NCBI RefSeq assembly: GCF_949628265.1
Contig: NC_088789.1
Location: forward strand, 23,243,883-23,307,882
DNA: 64,000 nucleotides
DNA from: Cloeon dipterum
Taxonomy: Eukaryota > Arthropoda > Insecta > Ephemeroptera > Baetidae
Reading direction: 5' to 3'
Position 1 is the first letter of the stretch, and every line of letters begins with the position of its first letter. A model generated the notes under the pieces. That model was not told the origin of the DNA and ran no database searches. It was given only the letters and a program-made list of their open reading frames with translations. Below are positions 13,506-36,274 of this stretch, piece by piece. The translations under genes and the position numbers were made by a program.

Positions 13506-13509
13506 TGTT

Positions 13510-13695
13510 TCCGTCTGTTTTTAAATTTATTTTATCTTTTGCGATCTTTTACGAGTACACACTTATCAAGAAACCCGTGATGTTGGCTCTCTGCTGATGA
13601 AAATATAGTTATAGTAGAAAGCCTGGAGGGACACGCTTGCTGGTGATCATTACTATCAGAAACAAGATTTCTTGGGGCCTATAGTGACCATTTCA
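13510..13695 (-). pseudogene. Decayed 5' end of an A3-like gene
   Basis: The minus strand matches the upstream region and first exon of gene A3 (16855-17040): the AGCTGAAATGGTCAC, TAGGCCCCAA, AGTAATGATCACCAG and CTCCAGGCT blocks occur in the same order, followed by GAGCCAACATC. Where A3 has ATGGTTTTCTGG then GTGAGT, this copy has ACGGGTTTCTTG then ATAAGT, so both the start and the donor are lost, and similarity stops in the intron before exon 2. It marks the outer end of the left arm of the long inverted repeat. Confidence 0.7.
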
Positions 13696-14155
13696 GCTAG
13701 GGAAAAGAAAAACCACTTAGGGGACTGCGAAAACTTTTGTAAATCATTAAAGCTGAGCTAGAAAAAGAAACCGCAATTAACGAGGGAAATGCATATATTT
13801 TCTTTATTTTTTACGTTTCTTCTCCAATCCGAATTTTGCAAAAGATCACTACAAACTATTTATCATTGCATATATACTGTTTATTAATCATTATAAGTCA
13901 ATTTTTTTAAATAATGTAAAGAGTAAATTTTACGCTACACACAGATCAGTATCAAAATTACTTGGATTTTAGAAAAAAATAAAAAATGAAAAGCAAAATG
14001 TGTGTTTCTTATCATTTTTGGTGTCATTTTATTTGTTAAGATTTTGAACAGAGGCCTGGTTTTCGCACAATCCACAATATTTTATTTTAATTGGTGATTC
14101 GAGCGTTTAGATTAATTCATTTGCTTCTTCCTGATGATTGAATTACAAGCAATTA

Positions 14156-14816
14156 TTAATTTCCCTCCGAGGAGCCGCCTTGTCCACCATGTTTTCCGGG
14201 ACGACCACGACCTCCAGGACCGCCACCACCACCTCCTCCTCCTCCTCCTCCTCCACCTCCTCCTCCACCACCTCCATTGACACCGGAGTCAACAGGATAG
14301 TCGTATGCATAATTTGGATAATTTGGGTCAGAGGGCGTCGATTGAGATCCTTGTCGTCCCTTCACGTTAGCGTTTTGTGCCTTCTTCTTGCCTTTCGATT
14401 TATTTTTTAGCTGTGCACTGCCTGCTCCTTGGTTGGATCCAGCGGAATTACTCGCTTTAGCTCTGCAAAAGGAAATTAAATATGAAAAATATATATTTTC
14501 CTGCTTCAATTCTCACTTCTGAGCTGCCTGTCCGCCTAGCTGCTGCTGCTGTGGCTTTTTTTGGCCTTTGTTAGGTTTTTTATTCACGGCAGCGCTTTCC
14601 ATCATTGGGGCCGGGCGTGCACCTACCTTTTCTCCTCCGCTAGCCAGACCCTTATTCTCTTCATCATCCCCGTCATCCCTGCCTTTGGTTGTTTGCAGCG
14701 AGCAGACGACGCAAAGCGCAAGAAGCACGAATGCTGGTTTCACCTTAAGGAATAATACGAAATTTGTCATTGCAGTTAATTATTTCACTCTCGAGCGCTC
14801 TCACTCTGAAACCCAT
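14156..14816 (-). CDS. Secreted basic poly-Gly protein A1
   Basis: Minus-strand exons 14816-14805, 14743-14517 and 14462-14156 join in phases 0 and 2 to 181 residues. Exon 1 encodes only MGFR; exon 2 resumes the signal peptide (VKPAFVLLALCVVCSLQ), then an acidic DDGDDEEN stretch, the motif GARPAPMME and a Lys/Gln-rich run. Exon 3 is basic, has NYAYDYP, then about 19 consecutive Gly and ends GGQGGSSEGN. The start is chosen by the exact parallel with A2 and a TATA box at 14864-14871; a competing ATG at 14770 would read through the intron. No known family; an extracellular structural or adhesive role is inferred from composition only. Its poly-Gly run replaces the GGP/GGR repeats of its inverted sister A2. 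Poly(A) signal near 14030. Confidence 0.8.
14220..14276 (-). repeat. Poly-glycine codon repeat in A1
   Basis: Runs of GGA/GGT/GGC codons on the minus strand (CCTCCTCC on the plus strand) encoding roughly 19 consecutive Gly. Likely to vary in length between alleles. Confidence 0.8.
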
Positions 14817-14863
14817 GGTTCGGCTTCTGTGATGAAACTGAAACGTGGAAGTTTCAACTCATG

Positions 14864-14871
14864 ATTTTATA
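14864..14871 (-). promoter_or_regulatory. TATA box of A1
   Basis: TATAAAAT on the minus strand, about 50 bp before the ATG of exon 1. The surrounding 200 bp are conserved in A2 and in the intronic relic at 10.5 kb. Confidence 0.55.
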
Positions 14872-15647
14872 GTATGCAACAGGATGTAGCGATGTCTGGA
14901 AAATGAATCACGCGCAAAGCTAGATTCCAGAACATTTTGCGAAATAACCTTCAATCGAACAGTTGGTGGTGGGAACAAACCAAATTGATAATGCCTTCTA
15001 GAGTCTTTGAAACAATATTAAGAAATAATAACTTACTTTTTAGAGAGCGCTACAAAATCGCTTGAAACATACCTAAGGATTTTTCTCTATAAATTTTAGA
15101 AAAATACTGGCTGGCTTTACTCTGTGTGGAAAATTAAATATGGATTAGTGAAAATTATATAAGGAAAAATCAAATGATACTGTTTCTGAGTTGATTTTTA
15201 CAGCTGTTGACACTTTATTTAAGCCAAAATACAAAGTTTTTTTTATTCTATTGGCAATTTTTGTGAAAATGCTTACATTCTTGTCAAAACTTATTTTAAA
15301 AGTGATGTAGTCTATAATAAGTTGATTATTTCAGTTTCAGTTCCAAGCTGCAAAATTATATCAAATCATATTTTCACATTACAGATGAGTATTGATTATT
15401 TATTTAAATGTATTAATGTAGTTTTTATTCTAGAAAGATTCTAGAAGATTCTAAAAAGCATAAAGTTAGGCATTATCGATTTGGTTCGTGCCTACCACCA
15501 AATTATGTTCAACTGAAATTTATTTCGCAGTGTTCTGGTTTCCAGCTCTGCGCGTCATTCATTTTCCGGGCATCGCTACATCCTGTTCGATACTGGAAAT
15601 TCGTGCTTTGAATCTTCCAGGTTCAGTTTCATCACAGAAGCCGAACC

Positions 15648-16409
15648 ATGGGTTTCAGAGTGAGCACTCGAGAGTAAAATAATTAACTGCAATAACAAAT
15701 TTCGTATTATTCCTTAAGGTGAAACCAGCATTTGTGCTTCTTGCGCTTTGCGTCGTCTGCTCGCTGCAAACAACCAAAGGCAAGGATGACGGGGATGATG
15801 AAGAGAATAAAGGTCTGGAGAGCGGTGGAGGAAAGGTGGGTGCACGCCCGGCCCCAATAATGGAAAGCGCTGCCGTGAATAAAAAAACTAATAATGTCAA
15901 CAACAAAGGCCAAAAAAAGCAGCAACAGCAGCAAGGGCAAAAGACAGCTCAGAAGTAAGAATTTAAACAGTAAATAAATGCAGTTTTCATGTTTATTTTC
16001 CTTTTGTAGAACTAAAGCGCGTAATTCCGCTGGAACCAACAAAGGAAGCGGTACGCAGGCAAAAAAGAATTTGAAAAGCAAGAAGTCACAAAATGCTAAG
16101 ATAACGGGACGACAAGGATTGGAACAGACGGATAATCAGACGCCCTCGGAAACAAATTATGGATCCGACAACACTGGTGACTATGGTGTCTATGATGCAG
16201 AGGTAGGAGGAGATGGTAGCGGTCCTAGCGGTCCTGGAGGCCCTGGAGGTCGTGAAGGTCCTGGAGGTCCTGGAGGTCGTGGAGGCCCTGGAGGTCCTGG
16301 AGGTCGTGAAGGTCCTGGGGGTCGAGGAGGCCCTGGAGGTCGTGAAGGTCCTGGAGGTCGTGGTCGTGGTGGAAATGGTGGACAAGGCAGCTCCTCAGAG
16401 GAAAATTAA
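15648..16409 (+). CDS. Secreted basic GGP/GGR-repeat protein A2
   Basis: Exons 15648-15659, 15719-15954 and 16010-16409 (phases 0 and 2) give 215 residues. Exon 1 is MGFR; exon 2 carries the hydrophobic core of the signal peptide, an acidic DDGDDEEN stretch, GARPAPIME and a Lys/Gln/Asn-rich run; exon 3 is Lys-rich, then acidic with Tyr, then about 17 Gly-Gly-x units (GGP, GGR) and ends GGQGSSSEEN. Without exon 1 there is no ATG: the codon that is ATG in A1 near the acceptor reads ATA here, which confirms the mini-exon model. Collagen-like spacing is absent (the unit is G-G-x rather than G-x-y). Divergent from A1, about 830 bp apart. Poly(A) signal AATAAA near 16533. Confidence 0.8.
16213..16372 (+). 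repeat. GGP/GGR coding minisatellite in A2
   Basis: Tandem 9-base-like units reading GGTCCTGGA, GGCCCTGGA and GGTCGTGAA or GGTCGTGGA, encoding Gly-Pro-Gly and Gly-Arg-Glu/Gly variants. The antisense strand is also open and gives a Ser/Thr/Arg repeat that I regard as a shadow. Confidence 0.8.
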
Positions 16410-16974
16410 TAATTGCTGATAATTAAAACACACCAGGAAAAAGCAAATGGATGAATCAATATGAGCGCATATTAAAACAATTATACATATGTGGATTGTG
16501 CAAAAACCAGGCCTCTGTTCAAAAGCTTAACAAATAAAATAACACCAACAATGATAATAGAAACACACATTTTGATTTTAATTTTCTCTAAAATATAAAA
16601 TATTTTGATAATGCTCAGTGTAGCGTGAAATTTATTTTCTAGATTATTTAAAATATCTTTTTGACATATAGATAGATGAATAAACAGTATCATGCAATTA
16701 ATAGCTTTGCGGTGAACTTTTTCAAAATTTTAATTGGAGAAGAAAATTAAAAATTATAAAATATTCCATACTTTCTTTCGGTATCTAATTTTTAGTTATG
16801 GATGCTTGATTAATTAAAGGTTTTCACAGACCCCAAGCTGGTTTTCCATTACACCAGCTGAAATGGTCACAATAGGCCCCAACACATCCTGTTTCTGACA
16901 GTAATGATCACCAGAAATCACGTCCCACCAGCCTCCAGGCTATCTATTGTATCTTCACCAGCGGAGCCAACATC

Positions 16975-17658
16975 ATGGTTTTCTGGGTGAGTGTGCACTC
17001 GTATCATAACGCAAAACAGCCTCAAATAAAATTAAATTAAAAAAAAAGATGAAAGAAGCTTTCATCTTTCTCGCACTCCTGGTGGTTTGTCTCACGAAGG
17101 CGACTGCTGATGTCAACGATGACGGTGGCGAAGAAAAAACAGAACTGATGTCTGGAGCTGAAAAGGTTGACGCACGACCTGCTCCTTTGATGGCAAATAA
17201 TGCCGCTGCTCGATCAAACAACAACCAAAACCTTAGCGGAAGGCAGGGCAGAAAGCAGCAACGAAAAAATTCCAAGTAACAGAGGGTTTCAATAATTTGT
17301 GCGAATTTTTAAGTAAAAATTGTGTTTAAACAGCTATCAGAATCAGGCGGCGCGAAGTGGTGCGAACCAAAAGGCAAAAAGAAATGGACAGCAGACTAAT
17401 TCAAAGAACAATAAGTCAAGTAAGCAGCAGGCTCGCGGAAGGTCCAATCAGTCTCAACGGTCTCGTGGCGCAGGATCAAACAATAAATCACAACGGCAAG
17501 CTTCCAATGATACAACAGGCGGCACATATGAAGAATACGCGTATGCTGCGTATGACACCAATAATAATGACTATAACACTCAAAATACGAACAATCGAGG
17601 ACGTGGCAAGGGGCACAAGAAACGCAGAAATCGCCAGAGCAGCTCTGAATATAACTAA
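16975..17658 (+). CDS. Secreted basic Asn/Arg-rich protein A3
   Basis: Exons 16975-16986, 17049-17275 and 17334-17658 (phases 0 and 2) give 187 residues. Exon 1 encodes MVFW; exon 2 continues MKEAFIFLALLVVCLTKATA, then an acidic stretch, DARPAPLMA and a basic Asn/Gln run; exon 3 is Ser/Asn/Gln/Arg-rich, carries YAYAAYDT, a NNN/DYN run and a basic GRGKGHKKRRNRQ before the terminal SSSEYN. Same exon phases and same order of blocks as A1 and A2, but no Gly repeat. The ATG at 17049 could start translation alone, but the conserved mini-exon and GTGAGT donor favour 16975. A decayed counterpart of its 5' end lies at 13510-13695. Confidence 0.78.
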
Positions 17659-18181
17659 ATAAAAAATCTCCATTGGTTGAAATCACGAAAAACCTCAAAA
17701 TTAAATTGTAGTAATTCGGAAATTTATACAAATAAAATATGGTCGAGAGCTGAATTGCAATGTTTGATTTTATAAGCTACCACAGAGATATATTATTTCC
17801 AAAACTTAAAAACTGAAAAGTGATAGAGAATTTTGAGGTAGCATAAACTAGTTGCAAAGGCTTGAATGAATTATGTTTCAGCGATGTTAATCTTTCATAG
17901 TGATGAACGCTGCTTGATTTTTAACTTCTTCATGACCAAATAAGTCACGGCTGAAAACGTGATTGCGGCTTGGCTAATTCTTCTAAAAATTTGAATAATG
18001 AGGTGTATAATATCAATATCGTAAAATATCCAGCACATTAAATTCTGCCAGCGGAGCATTTCATCGGAAAACCGTGGCGAACTTCCTTTCCGGCGTCAAG
18101 GACAATGCAAACGGTGCGTACGTGCAGGCCTCGAAACCTCGCATCACAACAGTGGTGTTGCTGGAAGCTGGAAACACCATC

Positions 18182-19064
18182 ATGAAACTGATAGTGAGCG
18201 TTCATACTGGAAAAATTATAGATTTTTAAAAATAAAAAATTCTAAGGTGTTTCTAGCTGTTCTGTGCGCACTCACATTCGTGGTGCTGGCCCAGAATAAC
18301 AACAATAAAGGCAAGAAAAATAAGGGTGGAAAACAGGACGGTGGCGGAAAAAACAACAAAGGGGGCAAGCAGGCGCAATCGAACAAAAAGGATCAGAAAA
18401 ATGAAGCACAGAAGAAGGCAGCAAAGCATTCTGGTAAATCCGGCGGCTCACAATCAGCCAGATTCGGTTACTACGCAGCCTACGACGATTACGGACGAGA
18501 CGAAGATTATTTGGCTCAATCACCTGACGAGTACGGAGATGGAAAAGGAGGGCATCATGACTCATCTTCAGAGTAAGTTCAAATTTAAAATTTTAATCCG
18601 CAGAGGGGTTTCTAAAAACTTTTTGCAGAGAAGCTATCTATAAGGTTTACGACGACATGAATTACGATGATGAGAACTGCGATGGCTTCAACTACTACAG
18701 CAATGGACCGCAAATGATGTGGGCATTCTTCTTCCCGATCTCGATGATGCCTGGGTATTACCCTTACGGTGGTGGCTACATGATGAGTCCCTACGGCAGT
18801 CCCTTCGGCAGCCCTATTATGGCCGTCATGCCACCGCCGTTCGGTCGTCCACCTATGCCGCCGCCAGCGGCGTACGGGCGGTTTGACTATGATGAATATG
18901 ATAATTATGGGTCACAGAAGAAAATCAAGAGTGGAAAAGTGGGGAAATCAGACCAAAAGAAGAAGAATCCTGCTTCAGCACAGGAACTAAAAAGGAAACC
19001 AACACCTTTCACAACCACAACAACCAAGAAGGCAGCGAAGAAAAATAATGGCAAAAAAGGATAA
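18182..19064 (+). CDS. Secreted Lys/Gly and Met/Pro/Tyr-rich protein B
   Basis: Exons 18182-18193, 18247-18572 and 18629-19064 (phases 0 and 2) give 257 residues. Exon 1 is MKLI; exon 2 begins VFLAVLCALTFVVLAQ, then a KGGK/NNKGGK basic block, YYAAYDDYG and ends at SSSE. Exon 3 adds a part not present in family A: two acidic Tyr stretches, MMWAFFFPISMMPGYYPYGG, a Met/Pro/Gly/Tyr-rich middle with SPFGSP and PPMPPP, then a basic tail with a Thr cluster and AAKKNNGKKG. The YAAYD and SSSE landmarks at the end of exon 2 match the end of family A proteins, so B looks like a family A protein with an extra domain. Secreted structural role inferred from composition. AATAAA near 19092. Confidence 0.75.
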
Positions 19065-20440: not shown

Positions 20441-20476
20441 CATTGATATTGAGATATTGTCCTGCTGCGCAAAACA

Positions 20477-20864
20477 ATGAGGCCTACAACAATTGTAAGT
20501 CTTGCTTTTGCTCAATTATTTTGCGAGATATTAAAAACTATCATCAAAGGTGATTTTTCTCACGGTCACCCTGGTGGTGCTCCTCTGCTACGCTGAAGCC
20601 AAGAACAAGAAGTCAAGTCGCGAGCTGAGTGCAAATAAGGACTCGTCGGCAACCTCAAAAATACCGGGCAGTGTTACTCCAGATTTGAAAACAAAAAGAG
20701 GACGGAAGAAGGCGAGGATTGCGGCAAAGCTGGCGAAGCTTCAAAGATCGAGTGATCCTAACAAAATTGCTGAGTGGAAACAAAAGAGAGCGGAAAAAAT
20801 TGCCGAGAGAAAGCGTAAACAAGCGGAAGAAGAAATGAAGAAGATGGGCATCACCAAAGCATAA
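20477..20864 (+). CDS. Secreted short Lys/Arg-rich protein C
   Basis: Exons 20477-20494 and 20550-20864 (phase 0) give 110 residues. Exon 1 is MRPTTI, exon 2 resumes VIFLTVTLVVLLCYAEAKNK. The mature part is strongly basic, first Ser/Asn/Thr-rich, then a probable helix rich in Lys/Arg/Ala/Glu (AEWKQKRAEKIAERKRKQAE) and ends KKMGITKA. It shares the first-exon architecture with its neighbours but lacks the RPAP and SSSE landmarks and has no third exon. No known family. Convertase-like basic pairs are abundant, so processing to peptides is possible but unproven. Confidence 0.7.
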
Positions 20865-21256: not shown

Positions 21257-21815
21257 AAGAAACGAGCACCAATTCGTCCTGGTAGCGGAAAAATTGCGCA
21301 ACTTTCAACAAACAAACGCGAATTTCCTTGTTGCAAGAAAAGGGCAACAATCCATTCGACAATGAAAATTTGGGTATTTGTTGAGTGATGCGCAAATTTA
21401 CCGCGACCAGGACGAATTCTTCTGTCTAGCATAGTTTACGAATAACAGAGCTGCAAAGATTTTCCAAGTGTCCACGTGGTAAAACAAAAATATTATCGAA
21501 AGCGCCAAAATGTTTGGTTTTTTAAAAATCACAAGAATTTTTCGAAACGTTATGGTACTTTAAAACATTAGGGAAATTTGAAAAATTATTAAATTTTTTT
21601 AAAATAATGGTGTTACTTTTTGAAAAATGCTTGGATTTAAAAAAAACATTTTTGGAATCTGCACTTCATGCCAATTAAAAAAATGTGCATTTGACCATTT
21701 TCGGACACTTTCGATAATATTTTGGTTTTAAAACGTGGACACTTGGAAAATCATTGCAGCTCTGTTATTCGTAAAATATGCTGGATAGAAGAATTTAAAT
21801 TCGTGCTCGTTTCTT
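21257..21815. mobile_element. Outer MITE with long terminal inverted repeats
   Basis: Left arm AAGAAACGAGCACC at 21257 pairs with GTGCTCGTTTCTT ending at 21815; inside, the TTCTTCT..AGCATA, TTTACGAATAACAGAG, CTGCAAAG, TTTTCCAAGTGTCCACG and ATATTATCGAAAG blocks repeat inverted at both ends. The left arm is interrupted by the inner MITE at 21275-21414. No transposase frame, so a nonautonomous DNA element; superfamily not assigned. Confidence 0.7.
21275..21414. mobile_element. Inner MITE, copy 1 (140 bp)
   Basis: Starts CGTCCTGGTAGCGG and ends CCGCGACCAGGACG, with AATT on both sides, and is nearly palindromic over the outer 40 bp. The same element, also 140 bp and also flanked by AATT, is at 42366-42505. 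AATT is either the target duplication or part of the inverted repeat. Confidence 0.75.
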
Positions 21816-22283
21816 TCTTCGCATATCAGGGCCGGTGTAAAGTGAAAATCATTTGCTGTATAGTTTTAATCTTGATTATTCTAACTGAGAGGGGCTGGAA
21901 CAGAGAGATATTTTTCTATGCAAATTTATTCAAAATGAAATTACGGATATTACATTGCAAGTGTCACCAGATATTTTTTTATGAGTGTTTTTTAGTATGG
22001 TATTGGAACGGATATCAAATAGTTAAATATTTTAAGCCATTTTACCACGAGAGCAGCAGTAATTTTAACTGCAACAACAATCAATATTTTATTGTTAAAT
22101 TCGATTCTCGACCGCGTTATGTTAAAAGATAAATGGTTCCCACGAATCTCCCATAGTCCAGTCCTTGTTTCGGGACACGTCATTTCACATCATTAAAACT
22201 GTTGACAAAAGTAAACATTTTGATGGAACGACCGTTTTATTTTTTTAATCCTGCTTTTGTTCAAAGCTCGGAGCTGTCGAAGC

Positions 22284-23189
22284 ATGGCAGCAGCAAAGGT
22301 GTGTGTATCATATTTTCTACTGTGTGGTGTTTTATATCTCATGGGGATAAATTGACCTTATTTAGTTGATAATATTTTCTCAAAAACTGTAGAACTTATA
22401 ACAGTTTGCAGTCATACAATAATGTTCCTATTAATTTAAAATTTTCAAAGCAAAAACTGTATAACATTGAAAGGTCATGGAATGCACTTTTAAAGATTCC
22501 CTTTATTTTTTAATGAAAACGACGAGCGAGCAATGTTCAGCAAAAAGGATAAATATTTGCAAAACATACTCACCTTCTAACGGCTTCCATGATAATACAA
22601 TTTTATAAAATTTATTGTTCTTAAAACTGTAATTATCGGGCTATATAATAAAAAATATCGCAATCATCATAGCATAACTTATTTTCAGCTGTTGGCGCTC
22701 TTGGTAGTTGCAGTTTGCGTGCACACTGCTGTTCTCCGGGAAGATCAGAATAAAAAGGAAATAAGCATTCAAGAAATTCGTCCCGCTCCCGTCGGAAATG
22801 TTGGAGTGAATAACAAAAATTCACTCAGAGCAAAACCCCAGGCCGCCAAGAAGAGCAAAAAACAGGCACCAAAACTTCCGAGCAAAAAACTGACGAAGAA
22901 CAAACCCAAGAACAATAATGGACAGAAAAAAGAAGCAAAAACCACAACTACAAAATTTGTGAAAAGCACCAAACGGCCAGCTAAAGACTTGACTGTGAGA
23001 ACAGGGAAAACAAAACCTGTCGCCGTAACTGCAGCTCTTGTCACAATCACCACAATCCCCCCAATCACCGAAGAACCATTAATAACTCTTGATCCTGTTA
23101 TGATGCAAGTCCAAGAAGACAGTTTAGGTCAATCAGGGATAGAAGGATTTAATGTGATACCTGGTGATTTATTATTTGGCCCTTCCTAA
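22284..23189 (+). CDS. Secreted Lys/Thr-rich protein D
   Basis: Exons 22284-22298 and 22689-23189 (phase 0, intron 390 bp) give 171 residues. Exon 1 is MAAAK, exon 2 resumes LLALLVVAVCVHTAVL. The mature protein has EIRPAPVGN, matching the RPAP landmark of family A, then a long Lys/Pro/Ala/Asn-rich basic part (KKSKKQAPKLPSKKLTKNK), a Thr-rich part (TTTT, TITTIPPITEEP) with possible O-glycosylation, and an acidic hydrophobic C-terminus ending LLFGPS. No known family. The gene has no counterpart in the second copy of the surrounding duplication; only its last bases with the AATAAA signal remain there (27830). Confidence 0.72.
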
Positions 23190-24380
23190 TATGGACTCAT
23201 TTTAAATCTTCTTTCTAACATTTTTAACATTGAAAAATTTCTCACTCGATCGTATGAAAGTGTAAAGCTTTATTTGAATAAAACTTGAATTTTTAAAAAT
23301 CCAATTTTGTGCCTATAAATATTAAATGACCAATAACTTCATTTAAATATAAGAGCTTGCAAGCGATATTAAAAGTATATAATATCAGAGACCATTTTAC
23401 ACCTCTTTGGTGATAACAATTAGCTACACTTAAAAGTAGTAGCAATAAAAGAAAAATAAACAATCCTGAGTTACATAATGACACATCAAATTAAATTTTC
23501 AAGAAACTTTGCTTACACATGATAGGAATAAGTTGTGGCACACACTTTATTCAGATATAAATACACTTATAGTTACGGATGTTTGTCTTTAAATTAACTT
23601 TATGGCGCAGAGCAATTTAGCCACATGCCTTGCCACATCCAGAAAATAAATGGAATACAAAATAGACAATAAAAGAGGTTTTAAATAAGCTTTATAACTG
23701 CTGAAGATCAAATTTACTTTAAAAAAAGAACTGTTGAAAATGCATGAAATTGCTGAGCACGCTAATTTATTTCCAATATCTTTCAATGTTTTCAGTAAGA
23801 AATTCGTTATTTTATCTCCTGTAGAACCTCAACCCACTCGCCGCAACAAATATTTAAAAGCTGTCGTTTCACGTACATTATCTTCTTAAAATCATTAAAG
23901 CTGGTTTTTTATAATGCGTGAATTTTCAGTCATAACTTATTCAATATTACATAACGGTTTTCCTTAAAAATATATAAAAATCTAATGGGGTGGAGTAAAG
24001 ATTTAAATTTAAACTTTTTTCAGTTTCATGTCAATTGCCATGATTTTTTATATAATTTTCAATATCCTTTCTACATCCAATGCCAATTTTTGCAAAATAA
24101 GCGATTACTAAAATAGTAAAATGGAAAGCCTTAAAAAATGTTTAATTAAAATAATAATAAAAAGCATATCAGTAATCTTAAACAGTTTTTGTCTCAATAC
24201 TACTGAAACTTCGATTTAAAAAAGAAGAAATTTTTCAATTGATAATATTTTAATTTTGCTGGTGGCCGTTTTGACACAAGTTTCCTATTCCTCGCGCTAG
24301 TTGCTGGGCAGGAAATGAAATGACGTATCGCGGAAAATGATTCTAAAGCGCGCAGATGAATTTTCACTGTTTAGAGTGAA
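23190..24380. other. Intergenic stretch within duplication copy 1
   Basis: AT-rich, no gene seen. It matches 27830-28795 closely, which shows that the homology between the copies extends well beyond coding DNA. A TGACGT-containing promoter block of E1 lies at about 24310-24345. Confidence 0.55.
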
Positions 24381-24391
24381 AGTTGCTCAAC

Positions 24392-26070: not shown

Positions 26071-26511
26071 ATGGGCAAAATTTGGGTCGCACAATTTCAT
26101 AACCAAGGATTATTTTACAGCGATAATATATTTAAATTCCAGACCATTTTCATCATTGGAATATTGATTTCCTCCGAGACTTATGGAAAGGCTTTGCCAC
26201 AAAACTCGCTTCTCAACCTTTTTGGATTCTCTGGCAACAATAATGGCGGCTGGAACCCGTCGTCTCTGTTGAAATCCACTGATGATGCGAACAAAAAGAG
26301 TGCAGATCAAGCCAAACACTTTTCCTCCATTGCCAATGGCTTAAGCGGACTGTTGCAAGACGCCGCTAAAAACGTCAAGTATTTCAGCCAACTTTTAAAT
26401 ACGACGCAAGCACCTCCCACCTCCCCTAAGGATCCGCTGATCGCTGGACTGGAGATGCTCTCTGGGATGTTTATCAAGAAAAATTTTAACGGAGAAGATT
26501 TAAAAAACTAG
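26071..26511 (+). CDS. Small secreted protein F1
   Basis: Exons 26071-26085 and 26143-26511 (phase 0) give 127 residues: MGKIW, then TIFIIGILISSETYGKA as signal peptide, LLNLFGFSGN, an Asn/Gly patch, a probable amphipathic helix region (SADQAKHFSSIANGLSGLLQ), LLNTTQAPPTSPKDP and a hydrophobic LIAGLEMLSGMFIKK end. No Cys. The donor GTCGCA is weak, and the 57-bp intron has no stop in frame, so a retained-intron product that disrupts the signal peptide is possible; in F2 the same intron contains a stop. Unlike the neighbours it is not strongly basic or repetitive. Function unknown. Confidence 0.72.
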   Translation: MGKIWVAQFHNQGLFYSDNIFKFQTIFIIGILISSETYGKALPQNSLLNLFGFSGNNNGGWNPSSLLKSTDDANKKSADQAKHFSSIANGLSGLLQDAAKNVKYFSQLLNTTQAPPTSPKDPLIAGLEMLSGMFIKKNFNGEDLKN

Positions 26512-26754
26512 CAGTTATAATAATAAAATTTTATCCAATATCTAATTTAAACTTAAAAATAAATTGGGAGAAAATTTTACATATGTGCATAGCATTTTTA
26601 TTACGTTAAGTTTGATCAATAATCAAGAAATACATATTTTGTAGAGTCAACTCTTACAATGATATAATTGTTAGCTACACTAATCAGTTGATCAAATTTC
26701 TAATTTTTCCTAGAATGTGCAAGAATCAAAAGTGCCGTTTTAATTTAAGTTACC

Positions 26755-26885
26755 TCTTTTCTCCAAAATTTGCATATAGCGCTTGACCATATTTTCTAGG
26801 CAGATTTCGATTTCACTCCTCGAGATCTGCTCAACGGGTGTGAGACCCATTTTGGGGAAACTCTTTGTTGAGAAAATAAAATATT
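26755..26885 (-). repeat. Dispersed repeat core, copy 4
   Basis: Minus-strand copy with AGAGTTTCCCCAA, a CACACCCGTTGAGCAGATCTC block and GCAAATTTTGGAG. It sits 3' of F1 and is duplicated with it (copy 5 at 32015). Confidence 0.6.
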
Positions 26886-27059
26886 TATTCAAGCATGGAG
26901 ACAGCTATTGGAATTTGTTTGTTTAATCTCACATTTAGTCATAATGCATCATGGTATAATATCTCACAGGTCACTTACAAAGTGGAAGCTTGTGAGAATG
27001 GGCGACACTTCTGTTAAACGTGCAATCAAGACTCTATTCGAGTAACACAGCCGAAGTGA

Positions 27060-27655
27060 CTAGGAAATGATATTAAAATGACATCACAATACACGTTAAA
27101 ATCTTGCCATCACATACACCTTACAAAGGGAAGGAAACTGCGCCGCCGAACAGTCTTTGAGCGCGGGTTGCATATCGTTCCACATTTTCACCACACGATA
27201 ATCCAACACAAACACACTTTTGCCGAGATCGGTGCGGGCGGGTGGCTGCTGCAGCCGAGGATGCAGCGGGTCATTGCACGCGTCCCAAGATGATTCATGT
27301 CATCGCGTTGTAGTCAGTCACTGCTGTGAGGCACTTATTGAAGAACAAGATATCTTTGTTGGCGAGCTGCGCCGGTACAGAGAGGAGGTTTTGCTGATGC
27401 GGTGGCCATGAATAAAGTGCAGCGCCATATTCTGCACTCTGACCAGTTTCTCGATGTTTATCTTCGTCAATGGGTGCCACGCTGGTGTCCCGTAGAACAG
27501 CTTCGACTTAACGAGTGAGAGGTAGGCTATCCTTTTCACTTGTTGAGAGCAGCCGCGCAGGTTGAGAGCTGCAAAGCCGAGGTTTGCGTCGCTTTATTAT
27601 TGCGCTGGACATCGACGTGGTGGTTCCAGCGCAGGTCCCTCGAAAGATGCACACC
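27060..27655 (-). mobile_element. 5'-truncated, decayed LINE (reverse transcriptase C-terminus)
   Basis: Minus-strand frames read, in order, VHLSRDLRWNHHVDVQRNN, AYLSLVKSKLFYGTPAWHP, KLVRVQNMALHFIHGHRIS, LANKDILFFNKCLTAVTDYN and DYRVVKMWNDMQPALKD ending in a stop near 27097. These are the conserved end-of-reverse-transcriptase and thumb region blocks of CR1/Jockey-group non-LTR retrotransposons. The frame changes at least twice and stops interrupt it, so it is dead. Its 5' truncation point coincides with the start of duplication copy 2. Confidence 0.8.
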
Positions 27656-28807
27656 ATTTTAACCAATTTTACCACGACAGCAGCAATAATTTTAACTGTA
27701 ACATCAAGCAATATTTTACTGTTAAAATCGAGTCTTGACCGCGTTTTGTTAAAAGATAAATGGTTCCAAAGTCAAGTCCTTGGTTCGGGACACACGTCAT
27801 TCACATCATTAATACTGTTGACAAAAGTGTAAAGCTTTATTTGAATAAAACTTGATATTTTTAAATCCTATTTTGGGCATATAAATTTTAAATTACAAAT
27901 TACCAATCAATTCATTTAAATATAAGGGCTTGCAAGCGATATTAATAGTTTATTTCAGAGTCTTTTTTATCTCTGTAATGATTACAATTATAGCAGCCCT
28001 AAAAAGCAGTAACAATAAAAGAAAGAAAAAATATATCCTGTTTTCCTGTTACATAGTTGACTAATTTACTGAAATTTTCGTAAAACTTTGCTTGCATATA
28101 TGATAAGAATTAGTTGTGGCACATTCTTTATTCTGTGGCGGGTACATTTATTAAAATAATTTTTTTAAAAATTATCTTTTCGTGGTTTTGCAGGGCTTGC
28201 TTTGCTATGGCTTGCCACGTCCTGAAAATTAATTAAGACGATAAAAAGAGGTTTTAAATCAACTTGATAACAAATGAAGATCAACTTTTCTTTAAAAAAA
28301 ATATTGAAATGCACGAAATTGCTGATGAGCACACAAATTCATTTCCAATCAATTTCAACATTTTAAGCGAAGAATTTGTTATTTAATCTCCTGTAGAACC
28401 TCAACTCACTCGTCGCAAAAATTTTATTGGTTTTCCATAAAAATATAAAAAAATTAAAGGTGAAATAAAGTTCTGTAAAATATTTTATATTTTTTTAAGT
28501 TTGATATCAATTGAAGCGATTTTTGTGTGATTTTAAATTTATTTTCAACATCCAACGACTAATTTTGCAAAATGAGCCTTGAAAAATGCTCAATTAAAAG
28601 CATATCAGTCATAAAAAAGTTGGTGTCTCAATACTACTGGATTTAAATATGAGGAGATAGTTCAATTAATAATATTTTACTTAAGCTGGTGACCGTATCG
28701 ACGCAAGTTGCGCTAGTTGGGCAGGATATGAATGACGTACGTAGAGCGATAAAGGATTATAAAGCGCGCAGATGAATTGTATCTGTTAAGAGTGAGAGTC
28801 GCTCAAC

Positions 28808-30989
28808 ATGAGGCTACGATGGGTAAAAAATTTCAATAGTAACACCAATACCTCACATTTCTGATTTTTTCCATTAATTTCAGCAAATAATTCTTCTCGT
28901 CGCGTGCTTGTTGCTGGTGACAATTGATGCTGGTCGCGGCTCAAGCTCAAGCTCAAGCTCAAAATCAAAATCACAATCTAGCAGCGGAGGTGCTGGTAAA
29001 ACGTCACGCTTGCCCGCGCAAAACACGGCCAAAAGCAAAAGCGTGAAGTCGGCGGTCAAAGATTTAGTTTCCAAGATCAAGGGTGGCAGCAAAAGTAAGA
29101 TAAATGGCAATAACAAGCAAATCAACTCTGCACCAAGCAGCTTGGACCCTGCCAACCTGAACCAGCCCACCGTTGTAAGGCAGAATCAGGGCCAGCTCAA
29201 TGCCCAAAGCCGACCTCCGAACCCTAGCAACCTTCAGAGTCCTCAGAGCAACCCTGGCGCCCAGCAAGTTAATCAGCAGTACCAGGCCCCCGTCCAGTCA
29301 GGCTACCCTGCTCAGAGTTGGCAGAACCCCAAGCCAGGGCAATTGCCTCATCAGGGCCAAATGGGGCCACCGCCGCAAGGAGGGTGGGTCTATCCTGGCA
29401 ATCCGCAACCTAATTCTTATCCACAGCCACCGCCAGGTGTCGGACAACAAGCGCCGAGCGGCAGCAAGAGTGGAGGCCTGTTTGATCAGCAGCACCAGGT
29501 TCCTCCCCAGTCAGGCTACCCTGCGCAGGGTTGGCAGAACCCCGTGCCAGGGCAAATACCTCAGCAGGGCCAAATGGGGCCACCGCAAGGAGTGTGGCCA
29601 CCAAATTCTTACCTCCCGCCACCGCCGCCGGGTTTTGTACAACAGCCGAGCGGCAGCAAGAGTGTAGGCCTGTTTGATCAGCAGCACCAGGTTCCCCCCC
29701 AGTCAGGCTACCCTACGCAGGGTGGGCAAATACCTCAGCAGGGTCAAATGGGGCCACCGCAAGGAGCGTGGCCACCAAATTCTTATCCGCAGCCACCACC
29801 ACCAGGTTTTGGACAACAGAGTCCTCAGAGCTACCCTGGCGCCCAGCAAGTTAATCAGCAGTACCAGGCCCCCCGCCAGGACGGCTACCCTGCTCAGGGT
29901 TGGCAGAACCCCGTGCCAGGGCAAATGCCTCAGCAGGGCCAAATGGGACAACCGCAAGGAGGATCCTATCCTGGCTATCCGCAACCAAATTCTTACCCAC
30001 AGCCACCACCGGGTGTCGGACAACAGCAGCACCTCGTTCCCCCCCAGTCAAGCTACCCTGGCTACCCTGTTCAGGGTGGGCAGTACCCCATGCCAGGGCA
30101 AATACCTCAGCAGGGCCAAATGGGGCAACCGCAAGGAGGGTGGCCACCAAATTCTTACCTGCCACCACCGCCGCCGGGTTATGTACAACAGCCGAGCGGC
30201 AGCAAGAGTGGAGGCCTGTTTGGACCAATTGTGCCTGTTCTTGACATCGTCTCGGGAGCGAGACTGGCCGGTGACGTTGGAAAAGCATTGATGATAGGTA
30301 TTAAAAAATAATGAGATATAGATTTAGTAAATATTAATTTTAAAATCATCCCCATAGGAAAACCTAGAACACGTTTCGATCTAAAAGTTTCCAGGACACC
30401 TGCAACAAACGAAACGATCCTTGATAGCAATGCGACCGTTTCCAACTCATCAGAACAATTATTCAACGACTCATTTCCTCTAATCAATGGAAATATGTCT
30501 GGGTACCAATCTGCAGCTCAACTCTTGCCACCTCCTGGAATGATTAACCCGTTATATCCTATTGAAAATGAGAATATGACGTCCCCTGACGGCATGCCCT
30601 ACCAGTATGCAATGCAGTACCCTTACATAAATCCATTCTTTCGCAACAACTCAAACGAATCAAACGACACCATGCCTATGCCTTTCAATCCGTTTTATCC
30701 AGAAGCCCCTAGTGGAAATATGTCTGGGTACCAATCTGCAGATCATCTCCTGCCACCTCCTGGAATGCTAAATCCGTTATATCCGATAGAAAATGAGAAC
30801 ATGACGTCTCCTGACGGCATGCCCTATCCGTATGCAATGCAGTACCCTTACATAAATCCATTCCTTCGCAACAACACCAATGTGCAAAACGATAGCGTTA
30901 CGTCAATCCCAACGGCTGATTTCGCAGGAAATTTGACAAATTTGTCTGATATGAAACTGGATGATCTTGCGGGAATGAAGAATAAGTAA
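28808..30989 (+). CDS. Secreted Pro/Gln/Gly-repeat protein E2
   Basis: Exons 28808-28822, 28884-30297 and 30358-30989 (phases 0 and 1) give 686 residues. Exon 1 is MRLRW; exon 2 resumes [17 protein letters not shown], a Ser/Lys basic part, then five tandem units of about 57-71 residues around [20 protein letters not shown] with SGSKSGGLF joints, and the same [18 protein letters not shown] end as E1. Exon 3 has the sequon-rich domain with its [23 protein letters not shown] unit present twice, versus once in E1. An AAG-TAA replaces AAG-GAA of E1, shortening the C-terminus by 24 codons; the lost part is still open downstream. TATAAAG at about 28758 with GAATGACGTACG upstream. Likely the same function as E1, with repeat number under fast change. 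Confidence 0.8.
29271..30216 (+). repeat. Five coding tandem repeats in E2
   Basis: Units begin at about 29271, 29484, 29675, 29853 and 30024 and run 171-213 bases. Each codes a [14 protein letters not shown]-like start, QQGQMG, PQGG, [14 protein letters not shown]; the joint SGSKSGGLF occurs after units 1, 2 and 5. E1 has a single unit. Confidence 0.8.
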
Positions 30990-31334
30990 AATAACAGCTC
31001 AGTGGAGATTGCTGATGGAGAAACTCCCAAAACAGGCGTCGTTTACAAATCTGATTAGTCAGAAGTACGACAAATGCCCATATTTTGGTTTGTAATATGG
31101 TTGTAATAAATTTGAGTGGGTAATAAAAGGAACGTCTACCAAAAATACAATTTGTTTTTAATGCTTTTAATGAGTAATGGTGAAATGACGAAATAATAGA
31201 GATTTTATCAATCAGAGAGCGGATGCTTTCCCATGGGCATCATCATGTGTACGTGACGCTCAAAACGTGACGCAAAATTTCTGGAAAGCCGTATGTTTGT
31301 TGGCTCCACTCTCCGCAGTTGCAGTCGATCAAAA

Positions 31335-31775
31335 ATGGGCAAAATTTGGGTAGTATAATTCTATAACCAAAATATATTTTACAGCGATAATATATTTATA
31401 TTCCAGACCATTTTTATCATTAGCATATTGATTTCCTCCGGGACATATGGAAAGGCTATGCCACAAAATTCGCTTCTCAACCTTTTTGGATTCGCTGGCA
31501 ACAGTAATGGCGGCTGGAACCCATTGTCTCTGTTGAAATTCGCTGATGATGCGAATAAAAACAGTGCAGATCAAGCCAAACACTTTGCCTCCATTGCGAA
31601 TGGCATAAGCGGACTGTTGCAAGACGCCGCTAAAAACGTCGAGCAAATCGGCCAACTTCTAAATACGACGCAAGCACCTCCCACCTCCCCTAAGGATCCG
31701 CTGATCGCTGGACTGGAGATGCTCTCTGGGATGTTTATCAAGAAAAATTTTAATGGAGAAGATTTAAAAAATTAG
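31335..31775 (+). CDS. Small secreted protein F2
   Basis: Exons 31335-31349 and 31407-31775 (phase 0) give 127 residues, the same length as F1, with about 15 differences that all fall in the first two thirds. The last 37 residues (from LLNTTQAPPTSP) are identical and the DNA there differs at about two silent sites. The donor is GTAGTA and intron retention meets a stop. Signal peptide TIFIISILISSGTYGKA. Function unknown. Confidence 0.75.
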
Positions 31776-32549
31776 CCGTTAAAATAATCAACTTCTATCC
31801 AATCAAATTTAAACTTAAAAATAAAGTGGGAGAAAATTTTCCATAAACGTACATTTTTTATTCTAGTTCGATCAATAATCAAGAAATACATATTTTGTAG
31901 AGATAACTCTTACAATGATATAATTGTTAGCTACACTAATCAGTTGATCAAATTGCTAATTTTTACAATTTTTCCTAAATTGTGCAAGAATAAAAAATAC
32001 AGATAAAATTAAAAATGTGTCCACTTTCCTCCAAAATGTATAGCACATGACCATATTTTCTAGGCAGATTTTCACTTCTCGAGATCTACTAAACGGGTAT
32101 GTGACACATTTCGGGGAATCTCTTTGTTGAGAAATAATAAAAAAATTCAGTAGGGAGACAGCCCTTACCAATTGAAAAACTTTGCAGCTCTCAAAGGTTT
32201 ACAGTTATAAATTAATTAATTTAATCTTGGATTTAAATGTATCCCGATTTTGCAATGTCAATCCTCTATAAAACCATTTTTGCGAATCTCTCTAAAAGTT
32301 GGGATGCGAATTATTTGCCATTTATCCTACATAGCAATAATTTTTCAAAATTGGTGCGTGTTTGCACTGAAACAGTAATCATGCCAACAAAGCAACAGTT
32401 GATGACGCTGACATTACTTGCGTGCTTTTATAAACGTAGATTTATATACTTGTGTGAGTTTGAATTTGCTGGACAGTTTTTTTCGTGAAAATTTGAATGA
32501 AAAACACATATAGGAAAGCACAAACTCTGGAACTTTATTTCAGAACATT
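31776..32549. other. 3' flank of F2 and end of duplication copy 2
   Basis: Contains a dispersed repeat core at about 32015-32130. An open frame at 32384-32488 begins MPTKQQLMTLTLLACF, which resembles a signal peptide, but nothing follows it. Confidence 0.4.
32015..32130 (-). repeat. Dispersed repeat core, copy 5
   Basis: The duplicated counterpart of copy 4 in the 3' flank of F2, same minus orientation. Confidence 0.55.
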
Positions 32550-33036
32550 TTAATTGAATGGGAGACCTTTTCTGATTTTATTCTCAACCACCTTCAACTG
32601 GCCGTAAGTGATGTTGACCGGCACATTCTTGAAATCAGTTCCAGAAGAACAAAGCGAGTTGATACCGACGATTTTACACAGCATCTTATTGACGGCTGAC
32701 ACGAATCCACCGCCCTCTCGCGAGGACTTGTCGTCGCGGCCGAAAATGGCCTTGAATATTGTCGACAGCAAATCTCCAGCAGTGGTGACCAGGGTGGTAT
32801 CCAGAGCCGGGTTTCCAGTTAATGTGAAATCCCCAGACGCGTTTTTTCCTCCGATGGTAACATTTTTGGCATTGATTAGCTCGATTTCAGAGCTTATCCT
32901 GCGAGGATTCCTGCTTAGAGCCGGGCAGGCTACGCAGAGTAGCACCAAGAAAATCTAGTTTCAGCAGATGTTGGGGTTTCATATCTGCATAAAATACAAT
33001 TCGAAAATTTACCAGGGAATTCCTGTTGGCAGCCAT
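32550..33036 (-). CDS. Secreted two-Cys protein G
   Basis: Minus-strand exons 33036-33013 and 32954-32550 (phase 0, intron 58 bp) give 142 residues. Exon 1 encodes MAANRNSL; exon 2 resumes IFLVLLCVACPALSRNPRR. The mature part has an NVTIGGKNASGDF region with sequons, TAGDLLSTIFKAIFGR, SSREGGGFVSAVNKMLC, a second Cys after IVGINSL, then NVPVNITYGQLKVVENKIRK. It is clearly a paralog of I on the opposite strand 1.3 kb away: SREGGGF/PREGGGF and VPVNxTYGxLK are shared, as is the promoter. A second ATG lies directly upstream (33039) in frame. No known family. Confidence 0.78.
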
Positions 33037-33562
33037 CATCCAAGCGGCTCCAGTTCAGAATGTTTCAGAGTGAATCTCGCGCGACTATGAAATCGTCGAC
33101 GGGATGCGCGCCGCCAGTATATCACGGTCAGTGTTATTATCTAGGGCAGGTTGCACAAGAGGACCTAACTAAATTTGAAGGCAATTTCATCATTCCTACC
33201 AGTTTCACTGATGGCATTTTAAATTCGCAAAACACATTATTTATATACTATGTTTTTTTTTAAATGGCAACTTGTCACTCGAATTTTAGAAAGACACGTT
33301 TCTGCAAAGTTAAGTTAAGAACTGTGTGTTTGCAGAGGCTTTAAATACTGATGATCGATTAAATTTCAATTCTTAAAAGGTTTACACGCAATTTTCACTT
33401 CTGAATTTTTTATTTCGTAGTTATGCAACATGCTTTACTTAAGTGCGGAGCAGGTTGCATAACAATCGTATTTCCAGGCGTTCGCTCAGAAAATTGGAGA
33501 GAGTAGCAACGTTCGTGGCAAAACCAGAAAGCTAGCATTTCCGAAGCGGCACCGGTGGGAAA
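33037..33562. promoter_or_regulatory. Divergent promoter region between G and H
   Basis: About 60-75 bp before the G start (minus strand) lies CGCGCATCCC followed by GACGATTTCATAGTCGCGCG; nearly the same block is found before gene I at about 34244-34275 (CGCGCATCCC, GACGATTTCATGGTCGCGCG). This conserved block is the best cis-element candidate of the G/I pair. Confidence 0.5.
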
Positions 33563-34093
33563 ATGACGCGCAGCTTGGTCCTTTTGGCAGTAAATAAATT
33601 AAAACATGCTTTACTTCGGAATTTTTTAATTTAATGTGTGTTTTCAAATCTTACATTTAGGCGTTGGCAGTATTAATTCAAGGGATATTAACCAAGAGTG
33701 CGAGAAAAAATGAAGAAAAGACGGGAAATGACACGAAGAATGAAAAATTCATTGGCCTCGACTTGGATCCGGAAATCGAACAACAAGCCTCACTCGGAGA
33801 AGAGACTAGGAAGGACGCAAAGGCGGTTTTTGGCATGATTTCGGAGGAGGTTGGACTACCATTTTTCTCTTTTCCAGCGTATTTATTTTATAATTTAAAA
33901 TTTCACGTTGTAAATTTAATTCAACTTCAGAATTGATTTAATTTCTGATGTTGTAAAATCGCTGCTTGGTTTTGGAGGGAAGAAACAGAAGCCAGTTGGA
34001 GACGAGGAAGTCGACGTCTCCGAGTCGTCTGCTAAGAAACAACAACTGGACAGATTAAAGTCCCAAAAACAGCAGGCTCCTAAAGCCACCTAA
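33563..34093 (+). CDS. Secreted Lys-rich protein H (3' exon uncertain)
   Basis: Exon 1 33563-33589 encodes MTRSLVLLA; exon 2 from 33661 resumes ALAVLIQGILTKSARKNEEK and gives a charged Lys/Glu/Asp-rich stretch, IGLDLDPEIEQQASLGEE and KAVFGMISEE before a GTTGGA donor at 33850. A third exon about 33932-34093 reads ISDVVKSLLGFGGKKQKPV, SESSAKKQQLDRLKSQ and ends APKAT. The acceptor CTTCAG fits, but the phases do not match (exon 2 ends phase 0; exon 3 needs phase 2), so either a splice site is misread, a sequence error exists or the gene has been damaged; an unspliced reading would stop at 33936. Charged secreted protein of unknown role. Confidence 0.55.
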
Positions 34094-34314
34094 TGTGAAA
34101 CTTGAATATTTTTGGCTAAATTAAAACGCCATCAGTGATGCTGGCAACAATGACAAATAAAAGCTGTGCCTTTGAATTTCCAACTGACAAACCTAGCTGC
34201 TCTTCCTGCGTGATAATAACCCTGGTGGTGATACTCTCCACGCGCATCCCACCGACGATTTCATGGTCGCGCGAAATTTGCATCGAAACAGTCTGAACCA
34301 GAGCAGCGTGGACG

Positions 34315-34792
34315 ATGGCCGCCGCTAAAGTTTTCCTGGTAAATTTCCGTATGCTGCAGAGTATAAAAATCATAATTTGAAAAACCCCAGGTTTTCTTGG
34401 TGCTGGCCTTGGTCACCTGCCCGGCCCTGAGTCGCCGTCCGAGACCGGGTTTGAACGCGGACGCTGAGTTGACTAAAAATTCCTCCAAGATTGGCGGCGC
34501 GTCCGAGGACTTCAGTCTTGAGTCAGGCTTCTTTGGCACGCTCGGATCCTTAGCGTCGTCGCTTTTCCGGTCCATTTTCGGAGGATCCGCCAGTCCCAGA
34601 GAGGGTGGCGGATTTTTGTCCACTATCGGAGGCTTGCTGTGCAACCTCCTGGGAGGAATTTTAGGCTCGATTTGCGCCTCTAATCCGGATGGAACTGATA
34701 GCATGGACGTGCCTGTCAATCTCACCTACGGAGAGTTGAAGGAGGCCGCGGATATAATCAGAAAAAATATTTCTCTTAATACTATTGATTGA
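34315..34792 (+). CDS. Secreted two-Cys protein I
   Basis: Exons 34315-34338 and 34391-34792 (phase 0, intron 52 bp) give 141 residues. Exon 1 is MAAAKVFL; exon 2 resumes VFLVLALVTCPALSRRPRPG. The mature protein has EDFSLESGFFGTLGSLASSL, FRSIFGG, SPREGGGFLSTIGGLLC, LGGILGSIC and VPVNLTYGELKEAADIIRKN. Same plan and spacing as G, including the two Cys in a hydrophobic region, which suggests one disulfide or a dimer bond. AATAAA at about 34801. Confidence 0.78.
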
Positions 34793-34996
34793 AATTTTCA
34801 AAATAAAAATCAGACCAGAAAATGCTTGTTTTAATTACTCTACAGACCTTATTATTTTATAAAAATTGGTCAATAAACATTCTAAAATTTCGCCATGGGG
34901 AATCCAGCATCACCAGTCACCTTGATGACGTGACCAGCGTCACTTTTCCGCTCCACATTTTCCATTTCCCATTCGAATCGAAGCTCCCATGTTACC

Positions 34997-36274
34997 ATGC
35001 GAATGTCAAATAATAATGGTTGCTCCCACAAGGTACGACAATTAAAAACAGTTTTAACTGAGTTTCATTTAGAATATTCTCAGGTATGCTTGGTGATTCT
35101 TTTGCTAGTGCTTATTGGTGCCTGGGGAAATCCAGCCAAGAAGAAGAATGCACAAAAGAAAATGGCAACAACTCGACCACCGTTTAAGTTATTCCAACAA
35201 ATCGGTCAGATTTTCAATCCAATCACGTGGCTTCAACAGCAAGAAAAACTGGTTAGTGCATTTAATTATTAATAATCTCAAAACACAGAACACGCCTCAG
35301 AGTGTAGAGGGTGCTATTTAGTTTTATTCAAAGAAACTTATTGGATTTTTTTATTTTAAAGGTTCTGAGCATTGTATTGAATGCAGAATTTTAGAAAAAG
35401 TTGAATTTTTAACTTTAAAAGGAACAGAATCCGTCAGATAAACATGTTTCATGAAATTTTAAGTCATTAATACGTTGCTTAAAATTGCCTAGAAACATTT
35501 AATTTTATTTTCAATTATAACGAAAGTGTAATTTAAAATTTCCCCTCATTTTTTATTTTCAGTTGCAATTTTAAATCCAAAAATTTATTATTTTGGTTGC
35601 TGCTGCGAAAACATTAGTTTTGTATACGAAAATTCGATTCTTTGAGTGTATATTTAGCCTGTAATATAGAGGAGTTTCTGTTTTTCTAGTTGAAAAAAAT
35701 CATCAGATCTCTTAAAATTAATTCGAAATGTGCGTCATGTGTTCCAATCTATTTTTGGTATAAATTTTGGCCTGGGTAAATTTGTGTTGTGGTATTATTT
35801 TTAAACTCACATAGGTTGCTAAGGGTGGTGTGAGGTGTGCAATGCATTAGAATTTCGATTAACATTATTTTCGATTATACATATATAAATACAAAATTTC
35901 TTCAGATATCGAAAATGGTGGCTGATTATCCGGACGACGAGTCAGTGGACAGTCCCCTCGTCGCGGAGTACATCGACCCACAAACGGGTCGAAAGGTACG
36001 CTACACCACCGGCAGCACCAGCATTGACAACACCGTGACCAGCTTTTTCGGCGCCCTCACGCAGATCATGGACAACATGTTCAAAACGTTCGTCACGCCG
36101 GCCATGAACGGGACGATTTGGGACGACACGCCACGTCCGAACGGCAGCGGTGGCCTCTCCAATTTCCTCAGCTCCTTCTTCTGCCAAATTTTCCTGGGGC
36201 TGCTCAGCCCTAACTACAACGGCAACCGATGCTCGATTTACAAGAATAGCACCGTGAACCCTATTTCTGGTTGA
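34997..36274 (+). CDS. Secreted two-Cys protein J with an extra exon
   Basis: Exons 34997-35032, 35084-35251 and 35906-36274 (phase 0 at both introns, 51 and 654 bp) give 190 residues. Exon 1 is MRMSNNNGCSHK, the longest first exon of the cluster; exon 2 resumes VCLVILLLVLIGAWGNPAKK and a basic then hydrophobic FNPITWLQQQEKL. Exon 3 has ISKMVADYPDDESVDSPLV, SIDNTVTSFFGALTQIMD, GSGGLSNFLSSFFCQIF and a second Cys near the end followed by an NST sequon. The FFGAL..GGLSxFLxxxxC pattern recalls G and I, so a distant relation is likely. The 51-bp first intron is open in frame, so an unspliced reading cannot be excluded. A second ATG at 35003 is in frame. Confidence 0.68.

Follow-up and report, generated by a model that had tools for sequence, protein, structure and literature searches.

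The closest described counterparts of the locus considered here are the cuticle and chorion genes of insects. Among Drosophila cuticle genes, a phase-0 intron near codon 5 of the signal peptide is typical, according to the abstract of PMC1626468. For Anopheles gambiae, the passages found in PMC2259329 state that 86% of the intron-bearing CPR genes are interrupted in the signal-peptide region and that the first exons so formed measure 3-36 nt, with both median and mode at 12. In the silkmoth, TCACGT is described in extracts of PMC4639761 as the chorion-specific hexanucleotide, essential to chorion expression. The present locus belongs to the mayfly Cloeon dipterum and lies in a stretch of 64,000 nucleotides (NCBI RefSeq assembly GCF_949628265.1, contig NC_088789.1, positions 23,243,883 to 23,307,882 of the forward strand), hereafter called the window, whose own numbering is used throughout. 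Here about 14 adjacent secreted-protein gene models (A1-3, B, C, D, E1/2, F1/2, G, H, I and J) span 14,156-36,274. The cluster is real and its architecture is ordinary; the first-pass annotation, in which a shared micro first exon unified the genes, makes too much of that exon. At a probability of about 65%, we regard the locus as a compact local cluster of some 14 orphan secreted genes (about ten units) with the standard architecture of small secreted structural proteins of insects, whose products would be components of an extracellular material.

The micro first exon and its controls

In the rebuilt models, exon 1 holds four codons in A1, A2, A3 and B, five in D, E1, E2, F1 and F2, six in C, eight in I, nine in G and H, and twelve in J. 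The junction is phase 0 in 14/14 models, and exon 2 starts with the signal-peptide core in every one of them. Intron 1 measures 51-71 nt in 13 of the 14 and 390 nt in D. The pattern scored combines an ATG and 3-12 open codons with a GTR donor and a 50-72-nt intron; it occurs in 12/14 models as against 19/458 AG-plus-open-frame sites sampled outside the cluster, with the hydrophobic core not demanded of the control sites and the cluster models having been picked by searching for the pattern. With the stricter donor GTRAG, the counts are 5/14 models and 0/429 control sites. A loose search (introns of 45-450 nt, GTR) fits 259 of the 458 random sites; because D needs its 390-nt intron and such a search often succeeds by chance, exon 1 of D is unproven. 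F1 is a second weak model with the poor donor GTCGCA, whose join is backed by the annotated homologues P0003 and P0004. Taken as a class, the micro-exons are genuine, and the claim of a 4-12-codon exon 1 followed by a phase-0 intron splitting the signal stands at that level, with D and F1 as its weak members. All the exon-1/exon-2 joins that had been quoted are present in the rebuilt models, those of A3, B, F and I also in annotated C. dipterum proteins, and H and J, proposed as fitting the pattern, do so with first exons of 9 and 12 codons in phase 0. Since A1/A2, E1/E2, F1/F2 and G/I are duplicates, the models amount to about ten units rather than 14 independent cases.

The same split is widespread in the CPR genes of this species. 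The control comprised 30 of 94 CPR matches, many of them tandem copies, and a signal was counted as split where the 12 codons before the core held no in-frame Met and an in-phase AG stood at the core, a criterion applied without locating CPR exon 1 itself. Five of the 30 had no readable core (L003, L010, L012, L013 and L021), and 24 of the 25 readable loci carry a split signal as judged by eye, the ambiguous L011 being the uncounted one. A further control with peritrophin (PF01607) is mixed: 30 of 125 matches yielded 14 loci in nine distinct genes with a core in the domain's frame, and by eye an in-frame Met is present in three genes, clearly missing in four and unclear in two. The combination of micro exon and phase-0 signal intron, a trait that is common in CPR genes without defining them, is present in 14/14 cluster models by construction. 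The micro first exon is an ordinary feature of insect secreted or cuticle-type genes and not a family signature; being general in such genes, it provides no basis for inferring common descent.

Families and singletons

A conserved 5' module had been proposed as the unifying element of the cluster. With the module taken as 150 nt upstream, exon 1 and 50 nt of the intron, the 66 pairs among 12 genes (near-duplicates E2 and F1 omitted) have a median z of 0.14, and the same split is present in unrelated CPR genes; the proposal is not supported. High values are obtained within families (A1-A2 91, G-I 39, A2-A3 5.9 and A1-A3 5.3), and the sole between-family pair above z 2.5 is A1-I, an isolated case at 5.0. 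Across these 66 pairs, the 5' modules of different families are not alike beyond one weak shared hexamer. This hexamer, AGCGGA, occurs at most 160 nt before the ATG in 5/10 family units (A3, B, C, F and J). Scored for enrichment over the 160 nt that precede the start codon in the ten units, it reaches 9.5e-6 over 1,099 words, and in the same search CATTTCAG with one mismatch reaches 1.1e-6 over 1,879 words. Both best words nominally survive correction for word count, against a background that is not promoter-matched. Among 300 GC-matched null sets, run for hexamers, 6 give a best word as strong as AGCGGA or stronger.

The mature parts were compared with two kinds of shuffles, one of whole sequences (A1, E2 and F1 omitted as near-duplicates, truncated H used) and one that keeps local composition (full H used; A1, E1, E2 and F1 omitted). 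The z values from whole-sequence shuffles are 28.5 for G-I, 9.5 for A2-A3, 6.4 for I-J, 6.2 for A2-D and 5.0 for A3-B. When local composition is kept, they become 23.6 for G-I, 4.6 for I-J, 4.3 for A2-A3, 3.6 for A2-D (2/500) and 1.2 for A3-B (74/500). BLASTP of A3 against B gives an E of 0.04 as a single comparison, and a profile comparison of G/I with J gives a single-comparison E of 0.0024 at a probability of 12%. By profile, F does not match G/I; by whole-sequence shuffles, E, F and H show no similarity to one another or to G, I and J. Two candidate relationships were rejected: that B consists of A3 with one further exon, the A3-B similarity being explained by local composition, and that H and E share a segment, which the whole-sequence shuffles do not support. 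The statement that most pairs are unrelatable by sequence holds only in part: G-I, A2-A3 and I-J are all above both shuffles, and A2 and D may be related at a borderline level. As far as sequence comparison reaches, the cluster is a set of a few small families plus several singletons with no common module.

Gene models, duplication and decay

At the left end lies A0 (13473-13722, minus strand), a decayed inverted copy of the A3 promoter and exon 1 whose start codon reads ACG, recognised by self-comparison and gapped local alignment. Gene A1 (14156-14816, minus strand; exon 1 14805-14816, MGFR; exon 2 14517-14743; exon 3 14156-14462) encodes 181 aa, a secreted product rich in Gly, Lys and Gln, and its promoter bears TATAAA at -55 and TCAGT at -25 relative to the ATG. 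Its inverted duplicate A2 (15648-16409, plus strand; exons 15648-15659, 15719-15954 and 16010-16409 including the stop) encodes 215 aa with GGPGGRE-type repeats, and A3 follows at 16975-17658 on the plus strand (exon 1 16975-16986, MVFW; exon 2 17049-17275; exon 3 17334-17658). In self-comparison, the inverted duplication pairs 13,520-14,996 with 15,468-17,036 at 74-81% identity, its left arm holding the A3 promoter and exon 1 as A0 and no intact gene. The A0-A3 homology fades near the boundary of intron 1 and exon 2, where the self-comparison match runs to the equivalent of 17036 and the gapped local alignment to 17079.

Gene B (18182-19064, plus strand; exon 1 18182-18193, MKLI; exon 2 18247-18572; exon 3 18629-19064) encodes 257 aa. 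The annotated proteins compared with the cluster are predictions by other groups, and one of them, P0002 (LOC135942457, uncharacterized protein, Cloeon dipterum), comes from the same assembly as the window. P0002 matches B at 100% and carries both the A3 join MVFW/MKEAFIFL and the B join MKLI/VFLAVL. Window exons 16975-16986, 17049-17242, 18034-18193, 18247-18572 and 18629-19064 rebuild it exactly; the model exits A3 exon 2 early at 17242 and passes through a 791-nt GC-AG intron into B. This A3-B fusion at 16975-19064 is either a read-through or chimeric transcript or an annotation merger.

The next genes are all on the plus strand. Gene C (20477-20864; exon 1 20477-20494, MRPTTI; exon 2 20550-20864) encodes a small, strongly basic protein of 110 aa. 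A 149-bp repeat between C and D (21271-21419) recurs at 42362-42510 with 90% identity and also matches at 73% in inverse orientation, like a foldback (MITE-type) element. Gene D (22284-23189; exon 1 22284-22298, MAAAK, unproven as noted; exon 2 22689-23189) is Lys-rich. Gene E1 (24392-25780; exons 24392-24406, MGLRW, 24470-25163 and 25227-25780) encodes 420 aa rich in Pro, Gln, Gly and Asn, and F1 (26071-26511; exons 26071-26085, MGKIW, and 26143-26511), the model with the weak donor, has an intron that keeps an open reading frame throughout. The three are repeated in a tandem D-E-F duplication that pairs 22,029-26,905 with 27,656-32,162 at 74-83% identity in self-comparison. Between F1 and this second copy, 27318-27593 on the minus strand holds an open frame that by eye resembles a non-LTR retrotransposon fragment and has no Pfam match. 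The second D copy (27656-27896), found in the self-comparison, keeps its flanks and has lost its coding body of about 1 kb; the flanks join at a short common AAAG, as would be expected of a microhomology deletion. Gene E2 (28808-30989; exons 28808-28822, MRLRW, 28884-30297 and 30358-30989), the tandem duplicate of E1, has expanded internal repeats and encodes 686 aa, and F2 (31335-31775; exons 31335-31349, MGKIW, and 31407-31775) encodes 127 aa.

Gene G (32550-33039, minus strand; exons 33013-33039, MMAANRNSL, and 32550-32954) encodes 143 aa with two Cys and is a paralogue of I (34315-34792, plus strand; exons 34315-34338, MAAAKVFL, and 34391-34792; 141 aa), the pair forming an inverted duplication of 70% identity in self-comparison. 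Gene H (33563-34093, plus strand; exons 33563-33589, MTRSLVLLA, 33661-33878 and 33931-34093) encodes 135 aa. Gene J (34997-36274, plus strand; exons 34997-35032, MRMSNNNGCSHK, 35084-35251 and 35906-36274 including the stop) encodes 190 aa with two Cys. The gene flanking the cluster at 12533-12934 contains an APD1-4 middle domain (PF16041, E 5e-16); it is E3-ligase-like and not a member of the secreted cluster.

The dN/dS of the duplicates is 0.54 for A1/A2, 0.84 for E1/E2, 0.47 for F1/F2 and 0.40 for G/I, while A2/A3 are too diverged for an estimate. Values of 0.40-0.84 indicate that the duplicate genes are coding and loosely constrained. With duplication and decay both seen (A0 and the second D), the description of a secreted, loosely constrained and locally confined orphan cluster with turnover is borne out. 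Further annotated proteins, located on another contig, extend the comparison. P0001 ('Hypothetical predicted protein [Cloeon dipterum]') is 95% identical to I over the full length and has the join MAAAKIFL/VFLVLALV. P0003 and P0004 both carry the F-type join MGKIW/(I or N)IF. P0003 is 93% identical to F2 and extends the F frame upstream yet keeps MGKIW/IIF, and P0004, which differs by 14% over 69% of F2, may be the counterpart of F1. The divergence of these three proteins from the window, 5% for I and 7% for F2, is large within one species and would reflect either fast evolution or cryptic species. Their contig presumably belongs to the earlier CLODIP2 assembly mentioned in passages of PMC7250882 and PMC11491810.

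Confinement, function and comparison with known systems

The cluster proteins are locally confined. In searches of the 190.1-Mb, 10-contig genome with nine of them (A2, B, C, D, E1, F2, G, H and J), no convincing relative was found outside the cluster; the weak off-locus matches were D to a zinc-finger-like frame (E 0.026) and F at E 0.93. C, H and J each match only themselves, and E1 matches only E1/E2. When I, B and F were compared with 5.8 billion proteins, the homologues obtained were C. dipterum proteins only; such a search needs shared 5-residue words, so that 'orphan' denotes no match at that sensitivity. Pfam gave no family above cut-off, PF00379 (the R&R consensus) included, in the 11 scanned proteins (A1, A3, B, C, D, E1, F2, G, H, I and J). 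The nearest family was clathrin light chain for C, at 21 bits against a 22-bit cut-off and probably a coiled-coil resemblance. Six other frames of the window gave only sub-threshold FYVE/PHF5 matches in Pfam. In PDB, I had chance-level matches alone (E 0.73 and 0.81) and the G/I profile had none; NCBIfam gave none above cut-off for four cluster proteins, and in RNA searches there were no Rfam matches at gathering scores and no tRNA. The cluster genes are not named in the Cloeon literature passages retrieved by term search (PMC7250882, PMC11491810, PMC11597413 and PMC5479533).

Ten mature parts were examined for composition. Six are free of cysteine, one contains a single residue and three contain two, and the pI is above 9 in eight of the ten, the exceptions being F2 (6.8) and I (4.9). 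A-E are of low complexity and rich in Gly, Lys, Asn, Pro or Gln, with 14 N-glycosylation sequons in the mature part of E1, while F-J look amphipathic and are two-Cys or Cys-free. This basic, Cys-poor and low-complexity composition, together with the cuticle-like gene structure, points to an extracellular structural or matrix role. Each gene has an exon 1 of 4-12 codons and a short phase-0 intron in the signal peptide, after which one or two exons encode the mature protein. The cluster grew by local events, namely the inverted A, the tandem D-E-F and the inverted G/I duplications, with decay of A0 and the second D. The products may be co-secreted into an extracellular material such as cuticle, eggshell or a gland secretion, and weak sequence constraint on such a material would allow fast divergence.

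Several points weigh against such a role and grouping. The signal cleavage sites that delimit the mature parts were set by eye, and among the cluster proteins scanned with Pfam none has a structural domain, whether chitin-binding, chorion or other. Some genes could be neighbours by chance and be used in different tissues. Owing to the fused A3-B annotation, the true gene boundaries may differ from the rebuilt models. As to common control, the sharing of AGCGGA is a weak hint of shared regulation and not a module. For a paleopteran model insect with public RNA-seq of stages and tissues, ovary included (PMC7250882), the locus offers a clean set of orphan genes whose possible role in cuticle, eggshell or secretion is directly checkable.

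An eggshell (chorion) cluster, with proteins secreted by follicle cells and promoters that share a chorion-type element, is unlikely. In A3, F1, F2 and J, TCACGT stands 57-84 nt before the ATG, and B has it at -225; the background is 0.098 per 250 nt. The sites near A3, F and J are suggestive of a promoter of chorion type, and in silkmoth chorion genes, as described in PMC4639761, a minor exon 1 likewise precedes a major exon 2. However, the motif is near the start in just three of ten family units (A3, F and J) and was chosen post hoc from nine motifs examined, the counts of TCACGT/TGACGT included. The N-terminal extension of P0003, moreover, appears to read through the TCACGT site as coding, and the Pfam scan of ten cluster proteins contained no chorion domain. 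A venom, silk or salivary effector cluster expressed in one gland is scarcely credible, even with the low-complexity Gly/Pro/Gln repeats of A2 and E in its favour. The mature parts have 0-2 Cys each, no domain of this kind appeared in the Pfam scan, and mayfly nymphs are not known to be venomous or to spin silk. A place among the cysteine-rich venom or toxin families would go with many conserved cysteines; 6/10 mature parts are Cys-free, and a venom-like character is not indicated.

The remaining alternatives concern the history of the 5' ends. The earlier view that a common ancestor kept its 5' module while the mature domains were replaced is improbable. A0 as a detached copy of the A3 promoter and exon 1, P0002 as a protein joining the first exons of A3 to B, and the hexamer common to five of ten promoters (at the null frequency given above) all speak for it. 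The modules of different families, however, lack overall similarity, the signal is split alike in unrelated CPR genes, and the residues at the end of exon 1 (W, R and K) would fit a donor-site constraint. A narrower possibility, also at long odds, is that the signal-splitting intron acts as a swap point, by which promoter, start codon and the first part of the signal could be shifted, or joined by splicing, to exons nearby. The fading of A0 homology near the intron and the A3-to-B GC-AG transcript model are in keeping with it. If chimeras of the A3-B type are translated, the locus would be a live case of the birth of secreted genes by 5'-module capture.

Read as a local cluster of small secreted structural proteins, the locus can be set beside the systems described above. 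With the silkmoth chorion locus, as presented in passages of PMC4639761, it has in common clustered and duplicated secreted genes, minor and major exons and TCACGT upstream of some genes; the silkmoth locus differs in its chorion domain, its series of divergent A/B gene pairs and an exon 1 of about 50 nt, whereas the mayfly cluster has no such series of pairs, a shorter exon 1 and, in the ten proteins scanned, no chorion domain. The CPR genes, as far as the extracts of PMC2259329 (An. gambiae) and PMC2793513 (Drosophila) describe them, are likewise tandem genes for small secreted proteins with a first exon of few codons and an intron in the signal peptide, often in phase 0. What sets them apart is the R&R chitin-binding consensus, which is theirs and was not seen in the scanned cluster proteins. 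In the Drosophila genes whose signal peptide is interrupted in phase 0 at codon 5 (PMC1626468), the intron agrees with that of the cluster in both position and phase; the searches with I, B and F found no relatives outside C. dipterum, and the codon-5 class is itself defined by gene structure and not by descent.

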